The notes: a model not told the origin generated them from the letters alone. Shown: positions 6,649 through 34,817, counted from the stretch's first letter. The stretch: 40,133 nucleotides of DNA from Candidatus Methanophagales archaeon (GCA_017883965.1 JAFNKG010000014.1:1-40133), one strand, 5' to 3'. Numbers and translations: made by a program.

Positions 6649-6704
6649 ATAGACTAAAGGGTTCTTGATATTTTTGTCTCTTAGATATTTCAGGTCTCTT
6701 ACCA

Positions 6705-6723
6705 ACAACAAATAATATGTTGT
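6705..6723 (-). promoter_or_regulatory. Inverted repeat over a TATA-like core upstream of cfbC
   Basis: ACAACA-AATAATA-TGTTGT is a 6-7-6 perfect inverted repeat. Its spacer on the minus strand (TATTATT) resembles a TATA box placed about 60 bp before the cfbC ATG. A repressor at this site would block TBP. Which protein binds is unknown. Confidence 0.4.
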
Positions 6724-9325: not shown

Positions 9326-9340
9326 TTATCTTATTTCACC

Positions 9341-12543: not shown

Positions 12544-12610
12544 TTTTTTTCTCACCCTTTCTTTTTTTTCCTTCTTTGTTTTTAACTGTTCGAGATAATA
12601 TAATAACATT

Positions 12611-13814: not shown

Positions 13815-13844
13815 TTTAAATAGTTGAATCACAAGTATATACTT
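13815..13844 (+). promoter_or_regulatory. TATA box and 12-bp palindrome before ATPase gene
   Basis: TTTAAATA (13815-13822) is a good archaeal TATA box, placing transcription initiation at or next to the ATG at 13845. The perfect palindrome AAGTATATACTT (13833-13844) ends exactly at that start codon, where a bound dimer would block initiation of a leaderless message. Confidence 0.5.
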
Positions 13845-19204: not shown

Positions 19205-19285
19205 TTATTTTTCGTATTGCGCTTTTATTTCCACGCTCTTTGCTCGTGTTCCAAATATGGTCTCAGTGCTTGAGGTTATTTTTAT
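19205..19285 (-). pseudogene. Remnant of a FecCD permease N-terminus
   Basis: Reading from the end of cobN copy 2, the 26 codons IKITSSTETIFGTRAKSVEI... followed by a stop match the first 26 codons of the intact permease at 10471 ([14 protein letters not shown]...). About 63 of 78 bases are identical by hand count, and 17 of 26 residues. Both ATG positions have become ATA. The remnant overlaps the cobN stop as the intact permease overlaps the chlID stop. It is a decayed copy showing that a permease gene once followed this cobN, or that recombination copied the junction. Confidence 0.8.
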
Positions 19286-22200
19286 TTCACCTTTAATGCC
19301 TCTTCTATGTCACCTTCCATTTCTAAATATGCCTGTCTCATTTTCTCCAGTTCCTCTTCCGTTGCCTTCCAGTATCCTCTTTTTTCTGCTTCAAACAATT
19401 TTTCCATTATTTCCACTGCGGCGAATTTGTTGTTCTCCTCCAGTCTTCTTCTCATTTTCTCGTCGAGAACAAAACGCTCAGCAATAGAAGACCATACCCA
19501 GTTAGGGACGGCATTTGTGGTGGCAGCCAGTCCCAACGTATTTTCTACACGGTCTGCGATTTGCTGTGCTCCATGATAGTCATGTTCCAGCATCCCGTCT
19601 ATCCATTTTGGATTCAGCAACCTTGTCCTTGTCCCCCTTACTATAACAGCTCCCACGTCTTCAGTTTTTATCACCTCTTTTGTGGTATCCGTGACCATCA
19701 TAGCAGCTTTTTCGCCTTTAACAGTTTCTACCGCCTTTGATAGCCCACCAAAGAACTCGTAGTAATGGTCGAGGTCAACTATTTCATAGTCATGCGAATC
19801 TCTGACTTGCGACACCAAATCTATTTTTGTGAGGTTCTTCCTGAATAACGAATCTCTTTTCTGTGCATGAATATTTTCCACGTATAAATGGTTCATAGAT
19901 TGGATATAGACTTCTGCCAGGTCTTTTTCTTCTTTCCAGATGGCGTCCTCAACTAAAGGAAGCATTCTTGTGCCATATTCCCCTGCTTTTGGACCGTATA
20001 TCCTTCCGCATGCAATTTTATTTGCAGTTTTTTCGTCTATCACACCTTTTTCGAGTTCTGTTTTCAGCGTATCGAGGTTTTCAAGCGAATGTTTCTTGAC
20101 AAAGTTCATCTCTATTGGTTCATCGAGACTTGCCGTGAGCGTAAATGCCTGATTCAGCAGTTGAATGATGTTTGGGAACATGTCACGAAAAAATCCGCAG
20201 ATATTGAGAAGGCAGTCAATTCTGGGTCTTCCAAGCTCCTCCAGGGGAATAATCTCTAATTTTGGATACCATGAGCCAGTTTCTTTAATGAGTTTCACAC
20301 CCAAATAATGAAGAATCTGTCCAATGGACTCTCCACCTGTTTTTGTCGTTTCAAATCCCCATAGCACGATGCCAACACTTTCAGGATATTTGCCATCCTT
20401 TCCCAGGTATCTCTTTATCGTATTCTCGGCTATTTCAGTTCCTCTTTCTGAGGCTGTCGAAGTTGGTATTTTATTAGGGTCAAACTGATTGATATTTCTC
20501 CCGGTAGGAAGAACTTCTGGTGTCCTTACCACGTCTCCACCAAGACCGGGTTCGATAAACTCCGTATTCAAGCCACGCAAGCAACTTTCCAGCTCGGTAG
20601 AATTATCAGCATAATTCTCTCCCACTTCGATTCCAAACGCTAAAGTCTTATTCAAATCCTTTCTGTGCTTACTATCCGCATTGCTTTTCTTGACTGCACT
20701 TTCAACCGATTCCTCAACACAACAATCTACAAGGTCTGCACATTTATTGTCTATTTTATCGAGCTCCGAAGCATATTTTTCTTTGTTCCTCAATGCGGAG
20801 TCGTAATCAATACTCGTTGATTCTGCTAATATTCGGTTGAGCGATTTTATGCCCTCTCGGTCATACCTAAGGATAAATTCGGTAAATTTCTTGAGGTCTT
20901 CTTTCTCGTAGCGCTGTCCAAGTATGTGGAGTCCTTTTGGTATTATGCTTCGTTTCATCTCATAGAGCTCTTCGTGAATCTTCTCGATACTGTCGCCCTC
21001 AAATTTCAGTTCCTTTGCCTTCTCCAGGATTTTCGCTTTCACTTTCTCACTTCTCAACCGGTCTTCCAGCATGGCTTCGTGATATTCGTCAATCAAATCC
21101 TGTAGCTCAGCATAGTCCTCATACAGGTCTGAAGTGGTGTAAGGAGGCGAGTTATAGCTAATCATCGTGCCATAAAGCCGCCGCTTTGCTATTGTTGATT
21201 CCGAGGTGTTCAACACGTGGTAAATGTAAAGATGCGGCATATTTCCAATCAAGATGTCCGGGAAACAACAGGAGCTCATTCCCACTTCCTTACCCTTCAT
21301 AAATTCCGCCAGACCGTGAGTCCCTACATGGAATACAGCATCTGCGCCCCAGACTTCCTGCAACCAGAAATAGAATGCGAGATATTGATGATGTGGCGGT
21401 TTTGTTTTGTCGTGAGCGGCTTTAGCTAAGTCAGATTCATCAAGCGGAGGTCTTGCAGGCTGAATTCCAACGAATACGTTGCCGAGTTCAATCCCGAGTA
21501 TCAGAAGTTTGGTATCAACGGTCATCACATTTCCCGGGGGCTCTCCCCAATCCGCAATAACATCGTTTTGCACCTCCTCAGGTAGTGCATGGAAAAATTC
21601 AAGATAATCTTTTAAATCAATAGAATAACAATTTTCCAGCGTTTTGTCCTCCCAGAACCATGTTCCAGAGTTTACGATTGCCCTCTCCTCAAATAAATCG
21701 TATAATTCTTTCTCCGGAAGTTCTGCCTCATATCCGCTCTCTTTTAAACGCTCTAACAAACAGTTTACAGATTGAAAAACGTCAAGATAAGCTGCTTTTC
21801 CTATATTCTCCTCGCCGGGCGGATAGTTATAGACAATAATAGCGAGTTTCTTTTCGTTATTTGGCATTTCCTTCAACCTCAGCCAATTTCTTATCCTGCC
21901 TGCAATGCGTTCAACACGATTTTCAATTGGTGCGACTTCCTTTGCCTCCATCTCGCCGACCATTATATTTTGCATACCACAGGAAGGTATGGGCTCAATA
22001 CATCCATCGAGTTCCGGCCAGATAACGGCAGCAATAATCTCGATTGGCGAAAGACCAGTTGCCGATTCCTTCCATTTTTCCACCTCTCGCACGAACATAG
22101 GTGCGGGAGCGAAAATAGGCACGTTCAACTCTTTCAGTAATTCAGCAGTCAAAGCCGGGTTTCCGCCAAGAGGACCTCCGTTTATCCTGAACCACATTAA

Positions 22201-23055
22201 ATTTATGACTGCATCAACAAGCGGTTTACCATTTCTGAAAAAATACCGTTTTATCGCTCTTAAATTATGGACTCCATCAGCATAAACAGGAATGAAATTG
22301 AACTCCTTAAGCTCGTTTATGAAAGCTCTCACGGTTGATACACTCTGGTCAAAGTGCATCCCGCCGTAGAAAAGAATGCCAATCGTTGAACGCATTTCCT
22401 CAAAATCTGATGCCGTCATGAACTCTTTCAGGTCCGTGAAATGCCCATAATGCGGATGGTAAATGCCATATTCCGGGAATTCAACGGGTTCTTTTGCCTT
22501 TGGCAGCTCGTATTCAAAGTATTCGCGGAGAAGAAGCAGGAACAGATTATAATAATTCTCCTTGCCCCCGTATCGCCAGTATCTGGTTATCGTAATATAA
22601 TTTCTCGCATCCTTTACGGATTTGATTGGTAAGACTTTTCCTGCCGTCTCCACCATATTCTGAGCTCGCTCTATCTTTTGCCACAGTTCTTCCGGATTGT
22701 CCACCTCAGTGGAAGAGCTTATTCGAGATGCGATTTTCGTACCCGCGAAAGAGCCGAGCCTTGTTATCTCCATTAGCTTACTCATGGGACCTACGAGGTT
22801 TAAGACGATATTTTTCGCTTCTTTTAACGCATCGTAAGCGATTTCACTTGACCTCCCTCCACCTCTTATGTCAATCAAAACGATTTCTGAACTTCTTAAA
22901 TCATTTTTTACGTTTTCTCTGTCAACCTCTTCCTCGTCAATCTGGTGTGGATAGTACATTTTGAAATCCACGTTTAATTCAAAGTCTTCGTTTAGTTCAT
23001 TCATTGCCTCCGCGAGTGCTGGTGTTGGAACCGTCGAGATACAGGTGATTTTCAT
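19282..23055 (-). CDS. cobN: CobN/BchH-type chelatase large subunit, copy 2 (canonical)
   Basis: A 1257-residue paralogue of the downstream copy. The core motif is HVGTHGLAEFMKGK (576-589), with SSCCFPDILIGNMPHLYIY and STIAKRRLYGTM after it and PPHHQYLAFYFWLQ before it. It lacks the four-cysteine insert of copy 1. Its C-terminal DLDHYYEFFGGLSKAVE is the standard CobN form, where copy 1 has CGCCCYFGTHGGL. The two proteins are clearly diverged over the N-terminal third. The ATG follows the methyltransferase stop by one base, so it is translationally linked to that gene. It would use the ATPase subunit encoded by chlID. Substrate unknown. Confidence 0.93.
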   Translation of the reverse strand: MKITCISTVPTPALAEAMNELNEDFELNVDFKMYYPHQIDEEEVDRENVKNDLRSSEIVLIDIRGGGRSSEIAYDALKEAKNIVLNLVGPMSKLMEITRLGSFAGTKIASRISSSTEVDNPEELWQKIERAQNMVETAGKVLPIKSVKDARNYITITRYWRYGGKENYYNLFLLLLREYFEYELPKAKEPVEFPEYGIYHPHYGHFTDLKEFMTASDFEEMRSTIGILFYGGMHFDQSVSTVRAFINELKEFNFIPVYADGVHNLRAIKRYFFRNGKPLVDAVINLMWFRINGGPLGGNPALTAELLKELNVPIFAPAPMFVREVEKWKESATGLSPIEIIAAVIWPELDGCIEPIPSCGMQNIMVGEMEAKEVAPIENRVERIAGRIRNWLRLKEMPNNEKKLAIIVYNYPPGEENIGKAAYLDVFQSVNCLLERLKESGYEAELPEKELYDLFEERAIVNSGTWFWEDKTLENCYSIDLKDYLEFFHALPEEVQNDVIADWGEPPGNVMTVDTKLLILGIELGNVFVGIQPARPPLDESDLAKAAHDKTKPPHHQYLAFYFWLQEVWGADAVFHVGTHGLAEFMKGKEVGMSSCCFPDILIGNMPHLYIYHVLNTSESTIAKRRLYGTMISYNSPPYTTSDLYEDYAELQDLIDEYHEAMLEDRLRSEKVKAKILEKAKELKFEGDSIEKIHEELYEMKRSIIPKGLHILGQRYEKEDLKKFTEFILRYDREGIKSLNRILAESTSIDYDSALRNKEKYASELDKIDNKCADLVDCCVEESVESAVKKSNADSKHRKDLNKTLAFGIEVGENYADNSTELESCLRGLNTEFIEPGLGGDVVRTPEVLPTGRNINQFDPNKIPTSTASERGTEIAENTIKRYLGKDGKYPESVGIVLWGFETTKTGGESIGQILHYLGVKLIKETGSWYPKLEIIPLEELGRPRIDCLLNICGFFRDMFPNIIQLLNQAFTLTASLDEPIEMNFVKKHSLENLDTLKTELEKGVIDEKTANKIACGRIYGPKAGEYGTRMLPLVEDAIWKEEKDLAEVYIQSMNHLYVENIHAQKRDSLFRKNLTKIDLVSQVRDSHDYEIVDLDHYYEFFGGLSKAVETVKGEKAAMMVTDTTKEVIKTEDVGAVIVRGTRTRLLNPKWIDGMLEHDYHGAQQIADRVENTLGLAATTNAVPNWVWSSIAERFVLDEKMRRRLEENNKFAAVEIMEKLFEAEKRGYWKATEEELEKMRQAYLEMEGDIEEALKVK

Positions 23056-23056
23056 T

Positions 23057-23953
23057 TTATTGGCCTTCTTTAATTTTTAGGTTAGTCAACGGCTTTGCGA
23101 TAATGTCAACACTGCTTGGATAGCCACCAAGTTTATCAATAAGTTCTAATCGTCTGATATTCGTATGCTCTTTGCCTTGTGCTGCTACTGAGTTCATCCA
23201 TACATTCTTTGGCAGAATAACCGGAGTCTCTGATATAATTTCAAATCCACAATCGTAGAAAATTTCATCGAGCTCCGAGCGATAGTACGATTTTAATATC
23301 CGATAAAAAGGTATCTTTTCGCCTTCCTTATTGGTGATAGAGCCTATCGGTTTCAGTCCTTTTTTATTCTCAATGGATGGATGACGGGTAAGATAGAAAC
23401 ATCCTGTATCTCTATCGAAAAAATCCTCCGCAAAGCAGTACTTTTCTCTAATTTCTCCGCTAAGAACGTTAGCCCGGAATAAACCATTAGGAGCGAGTTT
23501 TCGCCTGAATACTCTGAGCGCAGCCAACGGATTAATGTCCTGAAAAGCATTGACCATGATAATCCGGTCAACAGAGCCATCCGGAATCTCGAACAGCGGA
23601 TCGTAATCCACATCAGCACAGATGAAGATTACTTCTACTTCTGTTTCTACATCCCGAATGCGTTCTCTTACCAGGTTCAACATCCCTCCGGACATATCTA
23701 CAATATAATATTTTTTGAGTTCTCTCCTCTTCCTTACAACCGCTTCGGCAAACTCACCCCTACCTGGTCCAACCTCCATTGCAGTTCGTGATTCCACAAA
23801 CCAATCAGTTGCAGATTTTATCCACTCCGGGTCGTTTACCGGACTTGGAAAGTGACGAGGCTGGGCAATTGCTGCCACAGCCTCATAATATTCCGGATAC
23901 ACCTTCTTCCCGGTTTCTGTTCTTTCAGTCTCTATCATGTTCTTAATTTCCAT
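23057..23953 (-). CDS. Class I SAM-dependent methyltransferase
   Basis: A 298-residue soluble protein. Motif I AMEVGPGRGEFAEAV (about 57-71) binds S-adenosylmethionine; YYIVDMSGGML is the acidic loop region and PDGSVDRIIMVNAFQDI the later strand. The N-terminus has EYYEAVAAIAQPRHFPSP. The fold is a Rossmann methyltransferase, but the substrate is not identifiable. It is wedged between a binding protein (11-bp overlap) and cobN copy 2 (one-base gap), so co-translation is strongly implied and its substrate may be the imported or chelated tetrapyrrole. GGAGGAG lies 8 bp before ATG, supporting this start. BchM is the analogous neighbour in chlorophyll synthesis, though no specific BchM similarity was recognised. 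Confidence 0.85.
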   Translation of the reverse strand: MEIKNMIETERTETGKKVYPEYYEAVAAIAQPRHFPSPVNDPEWIKSATDWFVESRTAMEVGPGRGEFAEAVVRKRRELKKYYIVDMSGGMLNLVRERIRDVETEVEVIFICADVDYDPLFEIPDGSVDRIIMVNAFQDINPLAALRVFRRKLAPNGLFRANVLSGEIREKYCFAEDFFDRDTGCFYLTRHPSIENKKGLKPIGSITNKEGEKIPFYRILKSYYRSELDEIFYDCGFEIISETPVILPKNVWMNSVAAQGKEHTNIRRLELIDKLGGYPSSVDIIAKPLTNLKIKEGQ

Positions 23954-25187
23954 CAGGATGCTCCTCCGGATGATACACGAAGACGCCTTGCTCGTTCAGA
24001 TCAATGTCCAGTCCCTGGAATCTTCTCAGATATTCTTGATGGATCGCTTGTGGGTCGAACTCTGTATCTGGAAAGAGGTCTGGATGGAACCATTTTGCCA
24101 GGTAGCATTGCCCCACAAAAGGTCTGCATCCGCTTGCAGGTAAATAAGTCCAGAGTTCAGAGCTTATTATGTAAACACTTTCATTGTCCACAGCAGTTTT
24201 GTTCCAAGCATGGTCAGTAGCTCTGGTTAAAATCTCACTTCTTACTCCCTTCAACCTTCCTATAACACCTGGAGAGGGAGTAAGACCATAACCTGTCTCA
24301 CCCATGTATACCGCTCTAATTACAATATCCGGCTCTTCTCTTATTAGCGTTTCAACATCTGCTTCTTCCGGTATACCTGCGAGAATATCCACACCGCCTG
24401 CCGCGGCAATTATGTCGTCATCTGCCGTGCTAATCATATATGGCCAGTGTTCAGCGTACACCTTTTTTCTATCCGCACCAGAGAGCTCCGTTTCGATTGA
24501 ACTCAAAATATCATCATGCCAGGCAATGAAATCATCGGCTTCCTCTTCTTTTTCAAAGACGTATCCACACTTTTCTAATTCTTCTGAGAAAGTTTCTGGT
24601 TGATTGAAGCAGAACCGAAGCACAGTTACGTCCATTGACTCCAGCAGTTCCGTCTCTTCGTCTGCGGTATAACCATAGGGTCCTCCACAAGATGGTAGAA
24701 TAACAACTTCAGGGTCCTGGGCTAATATCGTTTCAACAACAGGGTTCCATGGGCCGCCTTCACCCCCAACATCTGTCACTTCACGGAACTCCGGGAAAAA
24801 AACTGAATCTAAGTCTGATGGCACGCCAACTATTGTATCTTTAGAGACTTTAAGTATTCGTAACGATTCAAGATGTTGTGACAAAGTGCAGGCTAATCGT
24901 TCTATCGGCTTGAATATCGTCACGTCTCTTCCAACAGAATCCTTGATAGGCCTCGGATAGTACACGTGGATATGTGCAATCTCTCTCACCTCATCCAACC
25001 CAAGATGCCCTTCTTCTCCAAGCATATACGGAATGATTACACTCGCAAGCTCACCCCTTGATACGATCTTATCTCCATCTGTATCGCCTGGAACCACTAT
25101 ACCTTGTGCAACCACAGGCATAACCGCCAGCGGCACACAAGATGCAAGAAGCACCATTACCAATATGCTCGACAATATTTTCTTCAT
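23943..25187 (-). CDS. Metal-chelate ABC transporter substrate-binding protein with EF-hand/dockerin-like N-module
   Basis: A secreted binding protein of 414 residues. The signal peptide is MKKILSSILVMVLLASCVPLAVMPVVAQG. A calcium-loop-like DTDGDKIVSRGELASVI (about 34-50) opens a helical module ending in the YYPRPIKDSVGRDVTIFKPIERL segment, which starts the BtuF/FepB-type domain. The last 30 residues, DPQAIHQEYLRRFQG...GVFVYHPEE, are shared with the binding proteins at 31813 and 25184. It overlaps the upstream binding protein gene by 4 bp and the methyltransferase by 11 bp. A cysteine sits near the end of the hydrophobic signal, but no clear lipobox is seen. The ligand is presumably a corrinoid, haem-like or iron chelate. 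Confidence 0.9.
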   Translation of the reverse strand: MKKILSSILVMVLLASCVPLAVMPVVAQGIVVPGDTDGDKIVSRGELASVIIPYMLGEEGHLGLDEVREIAHIHVYYPRPIKDSVGRDVTIFKPIERLACTLSQHLESLRILKVSKDTIVGVPSDLDSVFFPEFREVTDVGGEGGPWNPVVETILAQDPEVVILPSCGGPYGYTADEETELLESMDVTVLRFCFNQPETFSEELEKCGYVFEKEEEADDFIAWHDDILSSIETELSGADRKKVYAEHWPYMISTADDDIIAAAGGVDILAGIPEEADVETLIREEPDIVIRAVYMGETGYGLTPSPGVIGRLKGVRSEILTRATDHAWNKTAVDNESVYIISSELWTYLPASGCRPFVGQCYLAKWFHPDLFPDTEFDPQAIHQEYLRRFQGLDIDLNEQGVFVYHPEEHPDGN

Positions 25188-26386
25188 TCTTCAACCTCCG
25201 GATACACAAATATCGCATTTCCGTATGATATACCACCCATGAATTCCGTTAGATACTCCTTGTAAACTGCTTCTGGATCCAAGTTTAGCTCTGGATGAAT
25301 CAACTCAGCCCAATATGTGAGTCCAACGACACTATCCAACCCATAGAGTGGTTCATTACAGAATGCGTAAACTCTGTCGTCCTTCACTGCAAATATGCTT
25401 TCCGCACTTGGTCGGCCCTTAATTTCGTCTATCAGTCCTTCAGGCTCGTCAATGCTGCTCCAGCCCCAGTCATCCGTGTATACTCCTTTGATTATCACAT
25501 CTGGATTCTGCTTCAAGACCCATTCCCACTCCACATACGGATACTTCTCACTCTGGTCACCAGCGACATTTTTTCCACCTGCCATGGTGCATGTGGAGTC
25601 ATCGGCTGACCCGGGTCCCTTGGTCGCAATGTCTCCCAATCCCTTCACCGTTCCTTCTATGAATACCCATGGCGTCAGTTCGTAAGAATGGAACCAAGCA
25701 AGCCTTCTCAACCTATCCAGCTCTAAATGTTCTACCGTCTCCCCAAGGTATGTTGCCCTAAGATATGACAGAACCGCATTAGCAAGCTCCTCTCTTGATA
25801 CCGGTTCAAGACCTTCAACAGAATTTGTGACTGCTGCCTCCTTCGCCTGATACCAATTGTTATAGCTCTCTGCGGCATCTGTTGCATTAAGGACCATCCC
25901 AAGTTTTGTTACTTCTTCATGCAATGTCTCGTGCTTATAAAAGTCAAATACCACCACCGTGATATTTTCAAAATCTTTTAATTTCTCAACAGGCTCTAAT
26001 TTAAACGTATAAGTAATTACGAGTGTAGGGTCTGTTTTCTCTGTGGTCTCGTTCGTTGCAAGATTTGCAATCTCCCCATAATCAAACTCCTTCCATGTGC
26101 CAACAAATCCTGTACCCTTCAATTCCGGGAAGTAATAACTCTTCTTTGTTTTTATGCTCTCAGTCACACCAACGATATTGCCGACTTCTCCAAGCACTTT
26201 GACAGCTTCCGCAGCATCACTGTTCAAGACGATTATTTTTTTTGGTTCCATTTCAATCGTTACTTCTCTATCAGCGGAATCTGTAATAGATATAGGATAA
26301 GCACTTACACTTGCAGGCATCACCATCAGCAGTGTGCATAATGCAAGAAGCGCCGTTACCAATATACAGGATATTATCTGTTTCAT
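25184..26386 (-). CDS. Metal-chelate ABC transporter substrate-binding protein with internal helical module
   Basis: A secreted 400-residue binding protein. The signal peptide MKQIISCILVTALLALCTLLMVMPASVSA is followed directly by YPISITDSADREVTIEMEPKKIIVLNSDAAEAVKVLG, the start of the BtuF/FepB-like lobe. Unlike its two paralogues, the REELANAVLSYLRATYLGE helical module is not N-terminal but inserted between the lobes (about 195-240). The C-terminus DPEAVYKEYLTEFMGG...AIFVYPEVEE matches the other two. Both ends overlap neighbouring genes by 4 bp (ATGA), so translation is coupled to the surface protein upstream and the second binding protein downstream. Confidence 0.9.
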   Translation of the reverse strand: MKQIISCILVTALLALCTLLMVMPASVSAYPISITDSADREVTIEMEPKKIIVLNSDAAEAVKVLGEVGNIVGVTESIKTKKSYYFPELKGTGFVGTWKEFDYGEIANLATNETTEKTDPTLVITYTFKLEPVEKLKDFENITVVVFDFYKHETLHEEVTKLGMVLNATDAAESYNNWYQAKEAAVTNSVEGLEPVSREELANAVLSYLRATYLGETVEHLELDRLRRLAWFHSYELTPWVFIEGTVKGLGDIATKGPGSADDSTCTMAGGKNVAGDQSEKYPYVEWEWVLKQNPDVIIKGVYTDDWGWSSIDEPEGLIDEIKGRPSAESIFAVKDDRVYAFCNEPLYGLDSVVGLTYWAELIHPELNLDPEAVYKEYLTEFMGGISYGNAIFVYPEVEE

Positions 26387-27753
26387 TTCACATCACCTCC
26401 TTTCCTTCTCTTTCCAAACACATACCCAATTATCAGCGCTACCGATACGAAAAAAACCACGAGTATCAAAGAAAGTGCTGGCAGGGTAACTTCAAAGCCC
26501 GGCACCTCAGACGTTGATGCTGGCGTTGGACTCGGCGTTGGTACCGCTGTTAAAATTACCACCGTCGTTTCATCCGTATGTCCATCTTCATCATCTACCT
26601 TTACCGTGTGCATTCCTCCTATTGCACCTGTTGTGTCAAACATTGCGTTGAACGTACCTTTTTCTACTTTAACGGTCTGAGGTGTAAGCTCCGTCGGTCC
26701 CTTAACCGAGATAACGATTGGAAACCCTTCCTTTCTGTTAGTAGTTCCGGTTACAACCAGCGGTTCTCCAACTCCTACACTTGCAATTGTATCGAGCCTC
26801 ACGTACGCCGTTTCCACTTTCTCCTCACCTGTTACTGCGAACTTAGAAAATCCAGGCGTCTCTGCTTCGAAATAAACAAAGTTATCATCCTCACCGACCT
26901 TTGTAGTTGGAAGCGCCATCCATCCTTCGTTTTCAACGTATCTGTTCAGCTTGACCGTTGCCTCGTCAATATTGTTATCCACAAGCCACGATTTCATTAC
27001 TTTGAACTCAACACTGCCTTCTATTTTCGCACCGCCGGCATTTTCCTCCGTTATGTCAAGATAAGTGTATGCTACGCCCGAAGGCTCAGGTATGTCCGGA
27101 GTTTTCTCTATTCTCTCGACCTCCACCTTCACATCGTTCACATTTTTATCCGCTTTCAGCGCAATCATTGAAACGTCCATGTCTTCGAAAACCATCGCAC
27201 TTTCTTTTTCCGCTTCCATCACCGGAACGACCCTGCTCGCTTTCGTTACTGTGGGAACTGCTGGCGTTGGCGTTGGTGTTGGGGTAACGTCTTCTTCTTG
27301 TGTGCCCGCACCTCCACCACCGACTATGACAGTAGTATCTGCTATGTTCCCTTCTTTCTCGCTTAGCATGTCTATCCATTTCCCTGTGAAAGTGTCTTCA
27401 CCAGAAGGAGGCGCCATCACTTTATATTTTATCTCCTTTTCGTTTATCACCGCAAAAGCAATCATCTGCCCTGAGACACTGTAATTGTCCGCCGGATGCG
27501 TTGTGCTCACAAATCTAAACCCACTCGGGATCGTCTCAACAATACCACCGACTAAAGGAAGTTCACCGTTAATCCTTAACGTCACGTCAAACTCCTCACC
27601 CGGAGCGGGACCAGATGGAGCATACCTCGTCACGCTCTCTACTTCCGCTCCCTGCACCGCCGTAACCGTCCACGCAAGTAAAGCAGCAGTCGCTAACAGC
27701 ACGAACAAAGACAATGGCTTCAATCCTTTCCATTTTTCTCTTTTTTCCCTCAT
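26383..27753 (-). CDS. PGF-CTERM surface protein with PGF-pre-PGF domain
   Basis: A 456-residue exported protein heading the cobN operon. After a signal segment (about 12-36) comes a beta domain with VGGIVETIPSGFRFVSTTHPAD, shared with the protein at 34200. A TPTPTPAV linker follows. The PGF-pre-PGF domain (about 165-315) has YLDITEENAGG, FKVMKSWLVDNNID and FEAETPGFSKFAVTGE. A further domain (VRLDTIASVGVGEPLVVTGT) is shared with the large protein at 27916. Last come a TPSPTP linker and VPGFE plus a hydrophobic span and RRKGG, the archaeosortase tail. It is expected to be anchored at the S-layer. GGAAGGTGATT precedes the ATG. It probably holds or gates the binding proteins; this is inference. 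Confidence 0.85.
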   Translation of the reverse strand: MREKREKWKGLKPLSLFVLLATAALLAWTVTAVQGAEVESVTRYAPSGPAPGEEFDVTLRINGELPLVGGIVETIPSGFRFVSTTHPADNYSVSGQMIAFAVINEKEIKYKVMAPPSGEDTFTGKWIDMLSEKEGNIADTTVIVGGGGAGTQEEDVTPTPTPTPAVPTVTKASRVVPVMEAEKESAMVFEDMDVSMIALKADKNVNDVKVEVERIEKTPDIPEPSGVAYTYLDITEENAGGAKIEGSVEFKVMKSWLVDNNIDEATVKLNRYVENEGWMALPTTKVGEDDNFVYFEAETPGFSKFAVTGEEKVETAYVRLDTIASVGVGEPLVVTGTTNRKEGFPIVISVKGPTELTPQTVKVEKGTFNAMFDTTGAIGGMHTVKVDDEDGHTDETTVVILTAVPTPSPTPASTSEVPGFEVTLPALSLILVVFFVSVALIIGYVFGKRRKGGDVK

Positions 27754-27777
27754 CTCTTTTTAATCACCTTCCTTTTA

Positions 27778-27883
27778 TTCTTACAAAATCTATTTTTTTA
27801 TGCTTTTTGTTCTTCTAATATATAAATATGTATGATTTTAATAAAACCGAAAATCATTTAATATGACTATGTATATCAAATTA
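27778..27883 (+). promoter_or_regulatory. Divergent promoter block B, near-identical to block A
   Basis: This intergenic block drives both the plus-strand S-layer-like gene and, from its left part (GCATAAAAAAATAG on the minus strand), the cobN operon. On the plus strand CCGAAAATCATTTAATAT resembles BRE plus TATA at 27849-27864, predicting a start near 27886. The inverted repeat TGATTTT-N10-AAAATCA overlaps it and is a good operator candidate. About 105 bp are shared with 12611-12715 upstream of chlID. Confidence 0.75.
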
Positions 27884-27915
27884 TCCAAATAATAAACAAA
27901 AAGGGGTGATGAAAA

Positions 27916-30237
27916 ATGAAAGGTGTTAAGAAAGGAATATTGGAACTGGAAAAAGTAACGGTTGGAATGTTAGTGGTAGCAGTGGTGATGACTTTTGCAT
28001 TCGTGACGTTGATGCCATCTGCATCGGCAAAAGTAGTCCCGGCAACGCAGACTATAACAAGCTATGGGCAAGACTTCGTTGTCAACTACGACAATATTAC
28101 CATCTGGCTGGACGGAACCAAGTCATCGGCAATCGTTGGTCAAGTGATACAGTTCTACAATGCCACTGGTAATGCCTCTGGGAAGGTGACGTTAACCGGG
28201 ATTAGCGAGAACAACGCCGGTGAGGTGAAGTTCTCAGACCCTAATGGAAGGATAGATATATCAGGGATAAAGACGGGTGATTATAATGTCACGGGGGAAC
28301 CCGATGCCATAGGATGTAATGCAACGGTGATCAGTGTCGGTGAGGGAACTACGGAGTTAAAGCTGAAGAAGGGAACTAAAACAATAAGCAGTATCCCACA
28401 AGGAACTCGAATCACGGTAAAGTTTACTACTTCCTTAGACCCGAACGATGGGGTAACCTTGAAAGTGACTTACCCCAACGGTGATACGATGAAAGTAAAT
28501 CCTGCTGATGCCAACGCAGTCTTCGATAAAGTCAACGTTTTCCATGTCACCGACTTGGAAATAAATACCGCCGCAGGATGGGAACTTGGAATTTATAAAT
28601 TCAAAGTTTCCACTGAGGAGGAGTATGCACGTGGGCTGCGAAAGGACAGTGACGAGGTAAAATTAGAGATAGTGAGCCCTGAACTTAAGATAAAAGCGGA
28701 GAAGACGGAAGTGGTGGTGTCGGAGAAGGTTAAGTTGACAGTGACAGGCGTGCCTGACCACAACATTTCCATTTACGTAGAGAGGGGTGCAGAACATGCT
28801 ACGTTCCCTGGCGGTATAAATGATAACCCCGCAGGAAACAAAATTGGCAATCTTAGCGACTTGATGATAGACGCCGACGGCAAGAGTGAATATGTAGTCT
28901 ATTTTGATAAGATAGGCTCTTACACGGTGAAAGTAAGGGATTTGGATACTACTCCTCAAACTGAGTATTCCGTTGACATATCAGTTTCAAAAAAGAAGGT
29001 TACGTTCACCATGCCCGAGACATGCGCAATAGGAGCTGACCTTGTGATTAACGGAACGGCAAACACCGGAGATACCGTGGATATTGCCATCGAAAACCGA
29101 ATTGTGAAGGATGATGCGGCGATTGATAAGGGTAAGTTTGAGGTGAAGCTACTAACTCCTGCTACCTCAGGAACAGGCACCGAAGGCGCCATAAAGATAA
29201 AGGCATTCATAGATGGTGACTTTACCGATGGGGACGATGTTTCAGGTGTCCAGGATGACGGCTCAGCAATGGTATTGATGATAGTAGGTGATTTGACTGC
29301 GGAATCATCCTCTACATTAGTTTCACCGGGCGATTCATTTACGCTCAGCGGCACCGCAGCCGGCTCAAAAGTGGTGGACGTCCTCACTGTTGCCCCGAAA
29401 GGCGGCGGTGGAAACGGCATGAATCCAACGAATTCTGAAGATAACGGTCTGCCTCATGGAATTGTTTATGAAGCGGCATCTGTAAGCGGCGACTTTACGT
29501 GGTCCGTTGACATTGACGTTAACGAAGACGCTGACACCGGAACATATCTCGTGTTCGTGCTGAGTCCCGGGAGGAACAAGATATACGATGGGATTAGGAC
29601 TGGCGAGTTGCTGGACGGCATAGGAGCGAAGTATTTCGGAGGTGACCTCTTCAGGCTTGCAGGAAAGACACAGGAACAAATAAATGCCACACTCTGGGAC
29701 GGAACCATTGGCACTGCGGGCAGCGACGACTTCATGAAGAAATTTACAATAAAGATCGGGACGGCAGAAGTGAAACTATATTCAATTGCGGATGTAGTTA
29801 TTGGCGATGACCTGGTGGTTACCGGAACCTCAAACAGAGACGGACATTCCATCATTGTCAAGGTGAAAGGACCGGTAAACCTCGGAACGAAATTCGCAAC
29901 GGTTGAAAATGGTAAATTCAAAGCCACTTTCAGCACTTCCGAAGCTTTAACCGGTGAATATACCATAGAAGCAGATGACGGCGAAGGACACGGGGATGCA
30001 ACAACCGTAAACGTCATCACGCCAGTTCGAACAGAGGCATCGCCCACACCCACGCCAACAGCAACTCCAATGCCGACAACATCTCAGGAGATGCCAGCAA
30101 CACAAGCAGCAGCACAACTGGAGAACTCGTCAACGTCTACTTCGTCAGAGCTGCCGGGGTTCGAGGCGGTATTTGCGATAACAGCGTTCGCGGTGGTGTA
30201 TCTGCTCGTATTAGTGTCAAGAAAGAAACGGAATTAG
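27916..30237 (+). CDS. Large S-layer-like surface protein with PGF-CTERM tail
   Basis: A 773-residue exported protein. A long basic N-terminus and hydrophobic segment (VTVGMLVVAVVMTFAFVTLMPSASA, cleavage near residue 38) is followed by Thr/Asn/Asp-rich beta domains. These include ITIWLDGTKSSAIVGQVIQFYN, a region around KIKAEKTEVVVSEKVKLTVTG, and repeated units beginning with phrases such as DLVINGTANTGDTVDIAI and DLVVTGTSNRDGHSIIVKVKG. The final unit is homologous to the C-terminal domain of the divergent protein at 26383. A Thr/Pro linker (TPTPTATPMP) precedes LPGFEAVFAITAFAVVYLLV and RKKRN, the archaeosortase signal. Several N-x-S/T sites suggest glycosylation. AGGGGTGAT is the ribosome site. 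Likely cell-envelope component co-regulated with the chelatase operons. Confidence 0.88.
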   Translation: MKGVKKGILELEKVTVGMLVVAVVMTFAFVTLMPSASAKVVPATQTITSYGQDFVVNYDNITIWLDGTKSSAIVGQVIQFYNATGNASGKVTLTGISENNAGEVKFSDPNGRIDISGIKTGDYNVTGEPDAIGCNATVISVGEGTTELKLKKGTKTISSIPQGTRITVKFTTSLDPNDGVTLKVTYPNGDTMKVNPADANAVFDKVNVFHVTDLEINTAAGWELGIYKFKVSTEEEYARGLRKDSDEVKLEIVSPELKIKAEKTEVVVSEKVKLTVTGVPDHNISIYVERGAEHATFPGGINDNPAGNKIGNLSDLMIDADGKSEYVVYFDKIGSYTVKVRDLDTTPQTEYSVDISVSKKKVTFTMPETCAIGADLVINGTANTGDTVDIAIENRIVKDDAAIDKGKFEVKLLTPATSGTGTEGAIKIKAFIDGDFTDGDDVSGVQDDGSAMVLMIVGDLTAESSSTLVSPGDSFTLSGTAAGSKVVDVLTVAPKGGGGNGMNPTNSEDNGLPHGIVYEAASVSGDFTWSVDIDVNEDADTGTYLVFVLSPGRNKIYDGIRTGELLDGIGAKYFGGDLFRLAGKTQEQINATLWDGTIGTAGSDDFMKKFTIKIGTAEVKLYSIADVVIGDDLVVTGTSNRDGHSIIVKVKGPVNLGTKFATVENGKFKATFSTSEALTGEYTIEADDGEGHGDATTVNVITPVRTEASPTPTPTATPMPTTSQEMPATQAAAQLENSSTSTSSELPGFEAVFAITAFAVVYLLVLVSRKKRN

Positions 30238-30371
30238 GAATGTGTATGTAGGGTGTAAAAGAAAATTTCAGCCATAGGATGGGGTTACATCCATCCTTTA
30301 TGTTTTTTTCATCAGGTCTTTCAGAGGAAAAAATGTGTCCTTTCACTTTCGTAATGCAAACATATACCGCA

Positions 30372-30380
30372 ATCTTTATA
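30372..30380 (+). promoter_or_regulatory. TATA box of second AAA ATPase gene
   Basis: TCTTTATATC lies about 30 bp before the ATG at 30407, so the transcript would begin at or within a few bases of the start codon (leaderless). This supports the internal ATG over the GTG start used in the track. Confidence 0.45.
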
Positions 30381-30406
30381 TCTACTTTGCTTACTATATT
30401 TGCATC

Positions 30407-31777
30407 ATGGATAAAGAGTTCATAATCAGTTACCTGAAAACGAGAAACTACTGGTGGCAAACCCGAGAAGTATCGGCTGCGGACAAAGGTATTGTCAGGC
30501 ACGAATACCTCGAAAAAATACGTGAGATTGAGAAGCTGGAAAGAATAGTATGCCTGTCGGGAATAAGGCGGAGCGGTAAGACAACAATACTGTACCAGTG
30601 CATTGACCATCTCTTGAAAAACGCAGATGCAGAGCCGCAAAAGATCGTCTATGCTAAAGTTGACGACCTCCTGGGGAAAATAGACTCCATCCACGATATC
30701 CTGAACATATACCACGAACTCACCGGAATAAATCCGGTCGAGGAGAATGTATACATCTTGTTGGATGAAATACACGTCCAGAAAGAATGGCAACTACAAT
30801 TAAAATACTACCTTGACGCTCATGCAAAATGCAGGTTTGTTGTATCCGGGTCATCAAAGACACTGCTCTACAAGGATGCTTCCGAGAGCCTTGCCGGAAG
30901 GATAAGGTTTATAGACGTTTTCCCACTGACGTTTAAGGAATTCCTGGAGTTCAATGGAATAACTCTGCCAAAAGAGACAATACAAGTCAGTATTGATAAT
31001 TTTAAGCAAATAGAAAGTGCATACTTCGCTGTAGTTACGCAAAAACAACGGTTGTCCTATCTCCTGAATCAATATTTCGATATAGGTGGGTATCCCGAGT
31101 GGTTCAAAATCAAAGACATGGAGCAGTGGCGCAGAGTTCTTGTTGATGACTACTTCTCACTCATTTTATTCCGCGACATCGTCAGCGTATTCAGGGTGAA
31201 GGACCCTCTACTGCTTGAGAAGCTGGTAAGAGATATCGCCGTATTTTCTACCAATAGGTTCTCATATAAGGGTTTATCTGAACGATTGGGCATGGACCGG
31301 GAAACTTTGAAGCTCTACCTGTATTATCTGCGGAGTTCCATGCTCATATCAATAGCCGATGTCTATACCTATGCAAAAAAGGCAGTTGAGAAACGAGAAA
31401 AAAAGCTCTACTTCTGCGAAGAGGGTCTGAGAAGGGCTCTCACTCTCGATAGAGACGACGGTAAATCCGCGAAAAATGTCGTGGCATGGCATCTCATTAA
31501 AAGGGGCTACCGTTCAAAGGTGTTTTTCGAGCCCTATTACTGGAAAAACAAGCATGAGGTAGATTTTATCTATGACGATTCGGAACTCGTTCTTCCGGTT
31601 GAGGTGAAGTATCGCGAACACCCCGTATCAGCCGATACGAGAGGGCTCATAGAATTCATGCACACATTCAACTTGAACCAAGGGATAATCGTGACCAAGG
31701 ACATGCTTAAGAAAGAGATAATCGCTGGCAAGGAGATAATCTTCATTCCTCTCTGGCTCTTCCTGCCGCTTCTGTAG
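30407..31777 (+). CDS. AAA ATPase with DUF4143-type C-terminus
   Basis: A 456-residue cytoplasmic ATPase. Walker A is GIRRSGKTTILYQ, Walker B VYILLDEIHVQKEW and the sensor-like segment RFVVSGSSKTLLYKDASESLAGR; the following VFPLTFKEFLEF is typical of the AAA_14/DUF4143 family. A winged-helix-like part (YKGLSERLGMDRETLKLYLYYLRSSMLI) precedes a nuclease-like fold with KHEVDFIYDD...LPVEVKYRE. The track start (GTG, 24 codons upstream) is less likely than this ATG after a TATA box. Function unknown; such genes are common, patchily distributed and often near mobile or defence DNA. It stands between the two surface/binding-protein operons. Confidence 0.87.
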   Translation: MDKEFIISYLKTRNYWWQTREVSAADKGIVRHEYLEKIREIEKLERIVCLSGIRRSGKTTILYQCIDHLLKNADAEPQKIVYAKVDDLLGKIDSIHDILNIYHELTGINPVEENVYILLDEIHVQKEWQLQLKYYLDAHAKCRFVVSGSSKTLLYKDASESLAGRIRFIDVFPLTFKEFLEFNGITLPKETIQVSIDNFKQIESAYFAVVTQKQRLSYLLNQYFDIGGYPEWFKIKDMEQWRRVLVDDYFSLILFRDIVSVFRVKDPLLLEKLVRDIAVFSTNRFSYKGLSERLGMDRETLKLYLYYLRSSMLISIADVYTYAKKAVEKREKKLYFCEEGLRRALTLDRDDGKSAKNVVAWHLIKRGYRSKVFFEPYYWKNKHEVDFIYDDSELVLPVEVKYREHPVSADTRGLIEFMHTFNLNQGIIVTKDMLKKEIIAGKEIIFIPLWLFLPLL

Positions 31778-31784
31778 TCTTTTG

Positions 31785-31809
31785 ATAAAACTTTTCTTAA
31801 AAGTTTTAT
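31785..31809. terminator. Bidirectional hairpin between convergent genes
   Basis: ATAAAACTTTT and AAAAGTTTTAT form a perfect 11-bp stem with loop CTT, 7 bp after the plus-strand ATPase stop and 3 bp from the stop of the minus-strand binding protein gene. A/T tracts on both arms fit a terminator working in both directions. Same design as 3837-3863. Confidence 0.65.
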
Positions 31810-31812
31810 GGT

Positions 31813-33054
31813 TCAACTCCCTTCCATTGCCGGATACACAAACACCCCATGCTTTGTCACGTCGAAGTCTATACCACAGAATTTATCTATATATTCCTGA
31901 TGGATTGCTTGCGGGTCTAAATCCTCGAATTCTTCTGGATAAAACCACTTTGCCATGTATGCGAGACCAATCGGATATCCGGGAGCAAATGGAACACTGC
32001 TATCCTTCAAATAAACGTGCTCGTCTTCCACAGCCGTAATATTACCAAATTCGAGGAGTTCTATTATTCTTTCATACTCTTCCTCTATCCCTGATTCATC
32101 GTCGGTCTCGTAACCCCCACTGCTTGAAAGCCCGACGATAACTTCTGGATTATGGTCTAAAATCCACCCTAAATCTACTTCCGGATATGTTCCCTCAAGG
32201 TCTGCTTCTGTTGCTATGTTTATCCCTCCTGCGCGCTCACAAAGCGTGCTTATTCCACCTGATTGTTCCGTATAGGTCTTTCGCACCTTCGTTGACTCCT
32301 CGCCGCTCATGTCCAGGAAAACTTTGAGCCTCTCATCCTCTGGAATTTTCGACACTTTATCCTCTATTTCGTCAACGTATCCATCATGCCATTTGATATA
32401 TTCGGATGCGTTCTTCTCTTCGTCAAGTAAATAACCGAGCGTTCGCATTTCATCTCTAAGTGTTTCCGGCTTGTATAAGTCAAATCGAATGATGGTTATT
32501 GCGGGCAGTAACTTGTCCTCCAGCTTTTCTGGACTTTGCCATTCTGCATACGCAAATACTGCATTTGGCTCCAATACTACTACTTGCTCAACATCGGGAC
32601 CATACCACATCCCAACAGATAGTTTCTCGCTCAGCTCAGGGAAGAATGTATGCGCTTCTTTTATATTTTCAGTAACGCCGACTATCCTGTCCTTAGCACC
32701 TAAAGCACGAATCGCTTCCACTGCGTCTGGATTTAGCGCGACTATCCTCTCCTGTGGCTTGTATATCGTCACGAGTCTTCCAGCAGAATCTGTGATTTGC
32801 CGTGGGTACTGTGGATAATAACTCGCAATTTCCTTCAGTTCTCCTGATGAAAGACAATCTATTTCCTCGTCAAGATACCGCACTCTAAGATACCGCATGA
32901 GTTCATTGGCAAGCACTTCTCTCGCTACTTCTTCTATTTCTTCAACTGTGGAAGGCACACTGTTCTGTTTTTGCGCCACCGCCGGCATAACTGCCAACAG
33001 GAAACATAGCGCAAGAAACACCAGCACCAAAAGACAAGACAATATTTTATTCAC
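31813..33054 (-). CDS. Metal-chelate ABC transporter substrate-binding protein, third copy
   Basis: A secreted binding protein of 413 residues. The signal peptide MNKILSCLLVLVFLALCFLLAVMPAVAQ is followed by a helical module (EVLANELMRYLRVRYLDEE...SSGELKEIASYYPQYPR). The BtuF/FepB-like domain starts at ITDSAGRLVTIYKPQERIVALNPDAVEAIRALG. The C-terminus DPQAIHQEYIDKFCGIDFD...GVFVYPAMEG is nearly the same as in the copy at 23943. It is the last gene of a three-gene operon and overlaps the preceding surface protein by 8 bp. It has no permease next to it and may share the FecCD/FecE importer at 8510-10471. Confidence 0.9.
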   Translation of the reverse strand: MNKILSCLLVLVFLALCFLLAVMPAVAQKQNSVPSTVEEIEEVAREVLANELMRYLRVRYLDEEIDCLSSGELKEIASYYPQYPRQITDSAGRLVTIYKPQERIVALNPDAVEAIRALGAKDRIVGVTENIKEAHTFFPELSEKLSVGMWYGPDVEQVVVLEPNAVFAYAEWQSPEKLEDKLLPAITIIRFDLYKPETLRDEMRTLGYLLDEEKNASEYIKWHDGYVDEIEDKVSKIPEDERLKVFLDMSGEESTKVRKTYTEQSGGISTLCERAGGINIATEADLEGTYPEVDLGWILDHNPEVIVGLSSSGGYETDDESGIEEEYERIIELLEFGNITAVEDEHVYLKDSSVPFAPGYPIGLAYMAKWFYPEEFEDLDPQAIHQEYIDKFCGIDFDVTKHGVFVYPAMEGS

Positions 33055-34207
33055 TTTTTCTTTTTCTCTTTCCCTTTCTCTTTCTCAAAAATAGATACAC
33101 TATCCCTGGCACAAGCAGTCCAGCAAATGCGAATACTGCTCCAAACCCCGGCGGTAATTTCGATGCCGATGTTAAACTCGAAGAAGTTGCAGAAGTTTGT
33201 GATGCTGTTAGAGCTTCAAAAGAGGTTTCAGATTGCTCTTCTAATAGCGATTCCCCTCTCCCTTCCTCAGCAGAACACGGCATTCTCACGTATATCGGTT
33301 TTGATTCGTGTTTATTTATCCCATTCTTATAAACCGCCTTAAACTTGATTCCCCCTTCCTCAGCGTTATTGACTTTAAATACCGCGGTAGCCGAGTCGCC
33401 AGACTTTATACTGCCAATATATACTTTTTCTGGCTGGCATTCCGCTCCACTTGCATTTGAACCCACAGCAAGAACATAGACGCTATTAACATCGGATAGC
33501 CCTTCATTTATAACTTCTAATCTAATTTCGTGCTGCGAAACTTCCAGCGGCAATATGTTCAATGTGCCCTCAACGATAACAGGAATATAATAACGAATCC
33601 CTTTGCTGCTTTTGCCGTCCATATCCTCGATGTCCACAATGAATTTCAGCATGTATATGCCCTCCTCAAACGGCGCCTTTATCTTAAATGCTAAATCAAC
33701 TTTTTCATTCGGTCCTATTACACCAGCAGAGACATACCTGTTATAGACTTTGAAGTCATTCTCGGCAATGTAAGCTTCTTTTATGTATGCGTCCATTGTG
33801 AATCTTGTCTCGGCGTCAATATCTATCGTTCGCGTTACAGGTTCAATTTTTTCCTCTATTGTATGTTCCCTTATTGGTCCCTGACTCCCACTCGTTCTCT
33901 CTATCTCTTTTGTTGTCTCTTCCTTTATCGTATAGTTCCCCACTATCTCATCCTTTATATCTACATCCTTCTCTATCGGCTTATCTTGCATATTCTTAAG
34001 CGTTATCGTAAGCACACCTACATCACCGGGCATTAACGTCTCCGGGCTGAATTCGTAATCATACACCATTGCAGATGGTTTTGGGTCTGGAGCGACTGCA
34101 CACCTCTCTAACAGGTCGTCCACTTCATCTGCGAAAACTAAATTCGCGGAAGAAAACAAGACCAACACAGATAACAGGCAAAAAAATACCGCTTTTAACT
34201 TATTCAC
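33047..34207 (-). CDS. PGF-CTERM surface protein with CARDB/COG1361-like domains
   Basis: A 386-residue exported protein with a signal peptide (MNKLKAVFFCLLSVLVLFSSANLVFA). The segment YDYEFSPETLMPGDVGVLTITLKNMQDKPIE is the opening strand pattern of S-layer-related COG1361/CARDB beta domains. A second such domain (LEVSQHEIRLEVINEGLSDVNSVYVLAVG) follows near residue 225. A Ser/Thr-rich linker precedes LPPGFGAVFAFAGLLVPGIVYLFL and a very basic tail, a PGF-CTERM variant with PGFG in place of PGFE. Genes on both sides overlap by 8 bp, so expression is coupled with the binding protein. Probably a cell-surface scaffold; the ligand is unknown. Confidence 0.82.
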   Translation of the reverse strand: MNKLKAVFFCLLSVLVLFSSANLVFADEVDDLLERCAVAPDPKPSAMVYDYEFSPETLMPGDVGVLTITLKNMQDKPIEKDVDIKDEIVGNYTIKEETTKEIERTSGSQGPIREHTIEEKIEPVTRTIDIDAETRFTMDAYIKEAYIAENDFKVYNRYVSAGVIGPNEKVDLAFKIKAPFEEGIYMLKFIVDIEDMDGKSSKGIRYYIPVIVEGTLNILPLEVSQHEIRLEVINEGLSDVNSVYVLAVGSNASGAECQPEKVYIGSIKSGDSATAVFKVNNAEEGGIKFKAVYKNGINKHESKPIYVRMPCSAEEGRGESLLEEQSETSFEALTASQTSATSSSLTSASKLPPGFGAVFAFAGLLVPGIVYLFLRKRKGKRKRKSE

Positions 34208-34817
34208 GCTCCTTCACTTCACCTCCTTTTCTCCTGAATGAAACCAGAACTGCTACTGCAAAGAATCCAGCAACCGCAAATACCGCTTCAAATCCTGGTA
34301 CCGGAGGAGAGTGTGCATGCGCAGGAGTTATGGCTGGTGAAGGCGTTGGTATTTCCGTAGCACTCACAGAAACGCTCGTGCTACCAATATTTCCTTCCGC
34401 TTCGTTCAAAGCATCATACCACGTTCCACTGAAAGTCATACTTCCTTCTGCTTCCGATGACGCTTGCACTTTGTATTTTATCACGGTTTCATTGACCAGT
34501 GCAAACACAACCTTTTGTCCTGATATATCAGTTTGATTTGAAGGATGCGCTGTGCTGACAAATGCAAAATCATCTGGAATTGTCTCTACGATGCCGCCGA
34601 TTTGGAGCTTTGTTATGTTCAGCATCACGTCGAATGTTGAACCTGGAGTTGGGCTCGTCGTGGATAATGTGCGTGTTACAGTGGTGCTGGTATCGGCTCC
34701 AATAGCCATAACAATCGGTGCAACAGAGAGCATCGAAATCGGAAGTATCGCTATGCTTAATGTTAGTAACATCCGCGGTATTTTCTTATTATTCTCGTTC
34801 ATGCCCACATTTGCCAT
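34200..34817 (-). CDS. Small PGF-CTERM surface protein
   Basis: A 205-residue exported protein that heads the second surface/binding-protein operon. The signal segment is at about 15-42. Its single beta domain (TTVTRTLSTTSPTPGSTFDV, IGGIVETIPDDFAFVSTAHP, FSGTWYDALNEAEGNIGSTS) is homologous to the first domain of the protein at 26383. A short Thr/Pro linker precedes VPGFEAVFAVAGFFAVAVLV and RRKGG, the archaeosortase tail. An internal ATG (MNENNKK) 15 bp downstream is an alternative start. A BRE/TATA-like CCGAAAAATTTAAA lies about 40 bp upstream. Confidence 0.8.
   Translation of the reverse strand: MANVGMNENNKKIPRMLLTLSIAILPISMLSVAPIVMAIGADTSTTVTRTLSTTSPTPGSTFDVMLNITKLQIGGIVETIPDDFAFVSTAHPSNQTDISGQKVVFALVNETVIKYKVQASSEAEGSMTFSGTWYDALNEAEGNIGSTSVSVSATEIPTPSPAITPAHAHSPPVPGFEAVFAVAGFFAVAVLVSFRRKGGEVKERE

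Follow-up and report, generated by a model that had tools for sequence, protein, structure and literature searches.

A candidate receptor/docking-module pair for retaining anchor-less importer binding proteins in Methanophagales and methanogens

The window analyzed here is the whole 40,133-nucleotide stretch JAFNKG010000014.1:1-40133 (contig C33 of genome G000 in our numbering) of a Candidatus Methanophagales archaeon (GCA_017883965.1), belonging to the anaerobic methanotrophic archaea (ANME) of group ANME-1. It contains two minus-strand operons, each starting with a gene for a surface protein (S1 or S4) with a domain, GGIV, for which no Pfam or NCBIfam family was found, and each coding further along for binding proteins of ATP-binding cassette (ABC) importers (B1 and B2, and B3), all three of which carry a helix-loop-helix module of ~50 residues with EF-hand-like loops. 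We consider it likely that GGIV is a surface receptor that holds these binding proteins at the membrane through the module, in the manner of a cohesin/dockerin pair. Gene context supports this tethering strongly, and the predicted structures support it moderately.

GGIV genes are adjacent to binding-protein genes

S1 and S4 share GGIV with 41% identity over 174 residues (E = 4e-32, 42 standard deviations above shuffled sequences), bearing out the initial annotation, and two strands, GGIVETIP and GxWxDxL, are strongly conserved. A profile search finds exactly these two significant copies in the genome, both directly upstream of binding-protein genes, and B1, B2, and B3 are the only Peripla_BP_2 proteins in the assembly. 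S4, S3, and B3 form a single overlapping operon, in that order, and S1, B1, and B2 lead a second run that continues with a methyltransferase, a BchH/CobN-type protein, and a CobN-type protein (Table 1); stop and start codons overlap at the S4/S3, S3/B3, S1/B1, and B1/B2 junctions. The operon link between surface and binding proteins noted initially is therefore sound, but there are three Peripla_BP_2 proteins rather than two, with B1 and B2 both behind S1 and B3 behind S3.

This arrangement is widespread. Among 59 relatives, each strong GGIV match with a downstream gene on its contig is followed by a Peripla_BP_2 gene, either directly or after an S3-like gene. We also surveyed 295 genomes of the phylum, with two separate profile searches (for GGIV and for the module) over the same genome draw, and for 77 of the 86 GGIV domains (E ≤ 1e-15) a binding protein with the module is encoded no more than 2.5 kb downstream on the same strand. 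The nine unpaired domains include three at contig ends (G252, G132, and G041, the last with its partner at the start of another contig), one with masked sequence inside the binding protein (G008), and four with a Peripla_BP_2 gene directly downstream and a sub-threshold module (G260, G174, G163, and G108), and G169:C59 is the sole real exception. Both domains are present in 60 genomes, GGIV alone in 7, the module alone in 14, and neither in 214 (Fisher P = 9e-41, which ignores shared ancestry between genomes that are not independent and is to be read as very strong rather than literally). GGIV is thus not a domain common in unrelated S-layer genes.

The partner of GGIV is not always of the same family. 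In Methanococcoides, Methanolobus, and other Methanosarcinaceae, GGIV is followed by Peripla_BP_2, usually with FecCD and FecE next, whereas in Methanoculleus and Methanofollis it is mostly paired with SBP_bac_5-type proteins. The module is also present on these SBP_bac_5 proteins (ten N-terminal examples were checked), which belong to an unrelated superfamily and are encoded with different permeases. Because the same GGIV and module occur with both superfamilies, the module, and not the ligand, is the common factor.

These pairings bear on the proposal in the initial annotation of a cell-wall-attached capture layer, in which GGIV itself would bind a chelate or tetrapyrrole, as a surface hemophore- or NEAT-like domain, and pass it to the adjacent binding protein. 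The position of the GGIV gene immediately before that of a chelate-type binding protein, the chelatases encoded in the window, and the conservation of the two strands are in keeping with capture. However, the pairing with SBP_bac_5 peptide/nickel-type proteins retains the module but not the ligand, the best 50 structure matches include neither a NEAT nor a hemophore fold, and of the 33 GGIV loci with 5 kb or more of flanking sequence on each side, only 7 have chelatase genes nearby. We retain the link to binding proteins from that proposal, but tethering accommodates the two superfamilies better, and capture by GGIV is improbable.

Beta-sandwich surface domains are abundant in archaea and distant tandem relatives of GGIV fall in DUF11 (PF01345), so that S1 and S4 might instead be ordinary S-layer-associated Ig-like proteins, only co-expressed with the binding proteins, while the module serves stability, permease docking, or dimerization. 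We regard this too as unlikely: GGIV is found only beside binding proteins in this genome and nearly so across the phylum, and the occurrence of the module with two unrelated permease systems (FecCD and SBP_bac_5 type) argues against docking to one permease.

The genes for the distant tandem GGIV surface proteins also have neighbors whose products end in an EF-hand/helix tail, among them ANME-1 binding proteins of the SBP_bac_5 type (L072:7038-11004, L073:9332-13513, L075:1648-6164, L080:3-5800, and L076/L078/L079), and the pairing may be wider than importers. At another locus (L069:5088-7325), one gene directly behind a GGIV gene codes for a fusion of two Peripla_BP_2 domains that carries one docking module.

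GGIV-adjacent binding proteins carry the module and lack C-terminal anchors

The module has the consensus PGDxDGDxxVSxxELxxAIxxYM...LxLDELRxAA, and no Pfam family was found among the 26 modules searched. A strict EF-loop pattern is present in 16 of 46 modules, compared with 0.8 expected from shuffled sequences. None of B1, B2, and B3 has a C-terminal transmembrane (TM) span, and the same is true of their counterparts elsewhere. In a set of 75 Peripla_BP_2 proteins from 15 genomes, the 18 that are GGIV adjacent all carry the module and all lack a C-terminal TM span, whereas among the other 57 only two have the module (both in G001), 11 have a C-terminal TM span, 10 have a lipobox-like motif, and 18 carry a full two-repeat dockerin at the same N-terminal position. 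Taking all 75 together, a C-terminal span is absent from the 38 with a docking-type module and present in 11 of the 37 without (P = 2e-4). Tethering is favored over capture because of this module and anchor pattern (18/18 versus 2/57), the second superfamily, and the cohesin-like fold described below.

The predicted GGIV fold matches cohesins best

The AlphaFold (AF2) model of GGIV has nine predicted strands (predicted local distance difference test score of 95), and in a Foldseek search of the PDB cohesins rank 1, 3, 4, and 5, the best match (E = 1.5e-5) being a cohesin from a dockerin complex. The module had already been classed as dockerin-like before this search was done. Its model has two helices and one loop at most, in contrast to the two F-hand repeats of a dockerin.

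It is conceivable, although we doubt it, that GGIV and the module are a true but highly diverged cohesin and dockerin, the same family pair rather than an analogue. The predicted fold and the EF-hand-like loops agree with such an ancestry, as do the two-repeat dockerins that paralogous binding proteins carry at the same N-terminal site in two genomes (G011 and G022). The single loop does not, and neither do the Pfam searches, in which no Cohesin or Dockerin match was obtained. In addition, an hhalign comparison of the module with the G011 and G022 dockerins found no relation (probability of 0.4%); GGIV also gave no profile match to a Pfam-recognized cohesin at L080, a weak comparison in which one side is a single sequence. 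This alternative concerns ancestry, and the mechanism would stay the same. We note that G011 also has an array of about a dozen Peripla_BP_2 genes (L180/L181, G011:C10:8000-46500), most with an N-terminal two-repeat dockerin and with no GGIV neighbor in the stretches examined.

Several observations weigh against tethering by a cohesin-like receptor. The TM-scores of GGIV to cohesins are 0.52 to 0.57, and beta-sandwiches match widely; Cohesin PF00963 matches none of 30 GGIV members and is found nowhere in the genome, and Dockerin PF00404 matches none of 26 modules. A fold search with the module returned nothing significant; the best PDB match had E = 2.9, and a chain from a cellulosome came 14th (E = 9). 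The EF-hand-like loop is degenerate in modules that do not fit the strict pattern, including those of B1 and B3, and any calcium dependence of the presumed contact is therefore unlikely to be general. The association of C-terminal TM spans with GGIV adjacency alone is borderline (P = 0.056), and a lipobox-like motif is present in 3 of the 18 adjacent proteins, which could therefore anchor themselves. For at least 15 binding proteins with the module there is no GGIV gene in the vicinity; some of their genes adjoin a contig end or masked sequence, and some code for additional binding proteins in the same genome or region (G001:C18 and G004:C67), which could use a receptor encoded elsewhere. Lastly, GGIV distances correlate with those of the module (r = 0.64), but the correlation with the binding-protein core is no weaker (partial Mantel of 0.32 for GGIV and module given the core, and 0.47 for GGIV and core given the module). 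Co-evolution was consequently set aside as proof of contact, the co-variation being neither specific to the module nor decisive.

Surface proteins and their tails

The four surface-protein reading frames of the initial annotation were recovered, although they are not equal members of one system. All four can be read as ending in PGFE or PGFG, a hydrophobic span, and basic residues, as had been described, yet all score below the curated PGF-CTERM cut-offs. With the Pfam model S2, S3, and S4 reach 13.5, 13.9, and 16.7 bits (cut-off, 18.8) and S1 has no match; with the NCBIfam model S4 reaches 18.1 (cut-off, 24.5). Archaeosortase A (TIGR04125) is encoded elsewhere in the genome (G000:C97:16569-17321; 201.9 bits against a cut-off of 75). 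Most of the ANME-1 relatives searched encode it as well, in contrast to a 2017 survey in which ANME-1 was reported to lack it. A PF09721 match at G000:C47 was discarded as exosortase-type, with bacterial exosortases as its nearest relatives, and the relevant enzyme is the TIGR04125 protein.

S4 consists of a signal peptide, GGIV, a Thr/Pro linker, and the PGF/TM/basic tail, and S1 of GGIV, a PGF-pre-PGF domain (TIGR04213), a VVTGT domain, and a similar tail. The TIGR04213 domain is optional, being absent from S4 and most GGIV proteins. The sharing of VVTGT between S1 and S2 noted initially is well supported (E = 8e-25, 26 standard deviations above shuffled sequences), but as a surface module VVTGT is generic. 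The genome has four copies, of which two are outside the window in S-layer-like genes, with no binding-protein gene in the stretches examined around them, and the S1 copy is 77% identical to one in an S-layer-like gene at G000:C22. VVTGT was thus rejected as a component of the tether. S2 is of a generic S-layer type and is probably not core to the tether, although an S2-type gene also adjoins the S1-type locus in G032, G023, and G025. In about a dozen ANME-1 genomes the S3 gene separates those of S4 and B3, but S3 orthologues do not keep the PGF motif.

A model for tethering and import

We propose that, after export, S1 and S4 remain anchored through their C-terminal tails, probably by the action of archaeosortase A, and that their GGIV beta-sandwiches would bind the modules on the anchor-less B1, B2, and B3. 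The tethered proteins would then feed the FecCD/FecE importer at 8510 to 10471, the only FecCD importer beside these operons, and the two CobN/BchH-type chelatases together with the ChlI/D ATPase may strip or re-metallate the imported chelate or tetrapyrrole inside the cell. Chance is about evenly balanced as to whether the pair is, more broadly, a second receptor/docking system beyond the cohesin/dockerin models, general in methanogens and ANME for retaining anchor-less binding proteins, exchangeable between at least two superfamilies, and encoded with receptor beside partner, whose ANME-1 use is a tetrapyrrole or metal-chelate importer feeding CobN/BchH-type (de)chelatases.

The nature of the cargo is suggested by the company of these genes. 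Of the three CobN-superfamily genes in this genome, two are grouped here with a single FecCD/FecE importer and the three binding proteins, which points to a metal chelate or tetrapyrrole. Among solved structures B3 is nearest to iron/siderophore-type proteins, with B12- and heme-binding proteins further down and no clear favorite, and B2 gives weak matches. The BchH/CobN-type protein passes the NCBIfam BchH cut-off and has ChlH as its best solved relative. The operons offer the hypothesis of import followed by metal removal or exchange. A chelatase link was rejected as a general defining feature of GGIV loci, and the chelatase part is specific to some lineages since it accompanies a minority of them.

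Other features of the window

Beyond the CobN-type gene are those for a Gate-family protein, a ChlI/D-type chelatase ATPase, the FecCD permease, and the FecE-type ATPase. The Gate-domain (nucleoside recognition) membrane protein (12723-13694) is recurrently beside the ChlI/D subunit (L052, L061, and L070) and is a possible metal or precursor transporter. A NifH-like reductase (5770-6711) is encoded about 13 kb from the BchH-type gene and the S-adenosylmethionine (SAM) methyltransferase, and in a presumably non-photosynthetic archaeon these three proteins could be part of an undescribed tetrapyrrole pathway. Two archaeal AAA ATPase genes (ATPase_2/DUF234 and AAA_14/DUF4143; 13824-15263 and 30335-31777, plus strand) split the chelatase/importer cluster.

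Table 1. Features of the window discussed in the text
Feature	Coordinates	Strand	Basis
S4, candidate GGIV receptor protein, 205 residues, first gene of S4-S3-B3 operon	34200-34817	minus	Open reading frame (ORF), profile scores
GGIV domain of S4, cohesin-like beta-sandwich in model	34365-34682	minus	Profile placement, AF2, Foldseek
S3, membrane-anchored accessory protein between S4 and B3	33047-34207	minus	ORF, relatives' loci
B3, Peripla_BP_2 binding protein without C-terminal anchor	31813-33054	minus	Pfam, E = 8e-25
Candidate docking module of B3, N-terminal, EF loop degenerate	32788-32958	minus	Profile, E = 1.2e-19
S2, S-layer-like surface protein with VVTGT domain at 29758-30021, divergent from S1	27916-30237	plus	Profile searches
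S1, candidate GGIV receptor, first gene of chelatase operon	26383-27753	minus	ORF, profile searches
GGIV domain of S1	27316-27651	minus	Profile placement
PGF-pre-PGF domain (TIGR04213) of S1	26827-27183	minus	110.2 bits, cut-off 28
VVTGT (Ig-like) domain of S1	26545-26817	minus	Profile search of genome
B1, Peripla_BP_2 binding protein, start overlapping S1 stop	25184-26386	minus	ORF, Pfam
Candidate docking module of B1, inserted near protein middle	25670-25825	minus	Profile, E = 7.4e-20
B2, Peripla_BP_2 binding protein without C-terminal anchor; possible signal-peptide lipobox	23943-25187	minus	Pfam
Candidate docking module of B2, N-terminal, canonical EF-hand-like loop GDTDGDKIVSRGEL	24939-25094	minus	Profile search, predicted structure
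SAM-dependent methyltransferase, co-directional with B2 and chelatases	23057-23953	minus	Pfam
BchH/CobN-type chelatase large subunit	19282-23055	minus	NCBIfam BchH equivalog, 991.2, cut-off 829
CobN-type chelatase large subunit	15365-19105	minus	NCBIfam, 1804, cut-off 1468
ChlI/D-type chelatase ATPase-VWA subunit	10468-12609	minus	TIGR02442, 798.2, cut-off 779.45
FecCD-family importer permease	9341-10471	minus	Profile match
Importer ATPase, FecE/HmuV/BtuD-like	8510-9325	minus	Profile match

Significance and relation to known systems

If tethering is correct, it would explain how archaea without an outer membrane keep soluble-looking binding proteins, and two unannotated domains, present in about one-quarter to one-third of the 295 sampled genomes, would gain a specific function that can be put to the test. 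Presumed receptors and partners can be matched one to one from gene order, including those of culturable methanogens (Methanococcoides and Methanolobus), and both the question of cohesin/dockerin partners in ANME and the role of archaeal CobN/ChlH proteins become directly testable. A search of the literature on archaeal cohesin-like tethers of binding proteins was negative, and we found no description of the GGIV domain, a half-dockerin-like module, or their pairing.

Among known surface domains, the PGF-pre-PGF proteins (TIGR04213) are represented by S1, which carries the domain above the cut-off, but not by S4 or most GGIV proteins. The DUF11/BatD-like repeats include the distant tandem relatives of GGIV, but strong members of the GGIV family do not reach DUF11.

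The Hmu heme system of Bacteroidota (HmuS; PMC12583661) also combines a FecBCD-type importer with a CobN-superfamily chelatase, as is seen here, and the archaeal use of HmuS/CobN/ChlH homologues is stated to be unclear (PMC12583661). The systems differ in that the BchH/CobN-type chelatase of the window is closer to ChlH/BchH and most GGIV loci have no chelatase nearby. Neither an HmuY hemophore nor an HmuR TonB receptor was seen among the window ORFs examined, no search having been aimed at them.

TIGR04281, a PGF-CTERM-anchored ABC binding protein with the same import role, is the closest NCBIfam relative of B3 (89.4 bits) and B1 (69.4 bits). All three binding proteins are far from its cut-off of 325, with B2 at 38.9 bits, and none has a PGF-CTERM itself, the anchor being instead part of the separate GGIV protein.

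The closest likeness is to cohesin and dockerin, in that an anchored protein bears the presumed beta-sandwich receptor and an exported binding protein a small EF-hand-like module. ABC binding proteins of ANME are already reported to carry dockerin domains commonly, and there are many cohesins whose partners are still to be determined (Chadwick et al. 2022; PMC9012536); a 2017 ANME survey likewise noted many cohesin and dockerin domains and called their function outside cellulosomes unknown. GGIV and the module differ in escaping detection by PF00963 and PF00404 and in that the module has one loop, often degenerate. Unlike the dockerins described in PMC9012536, each GGIV receptor is encoded next to its presumed partner.

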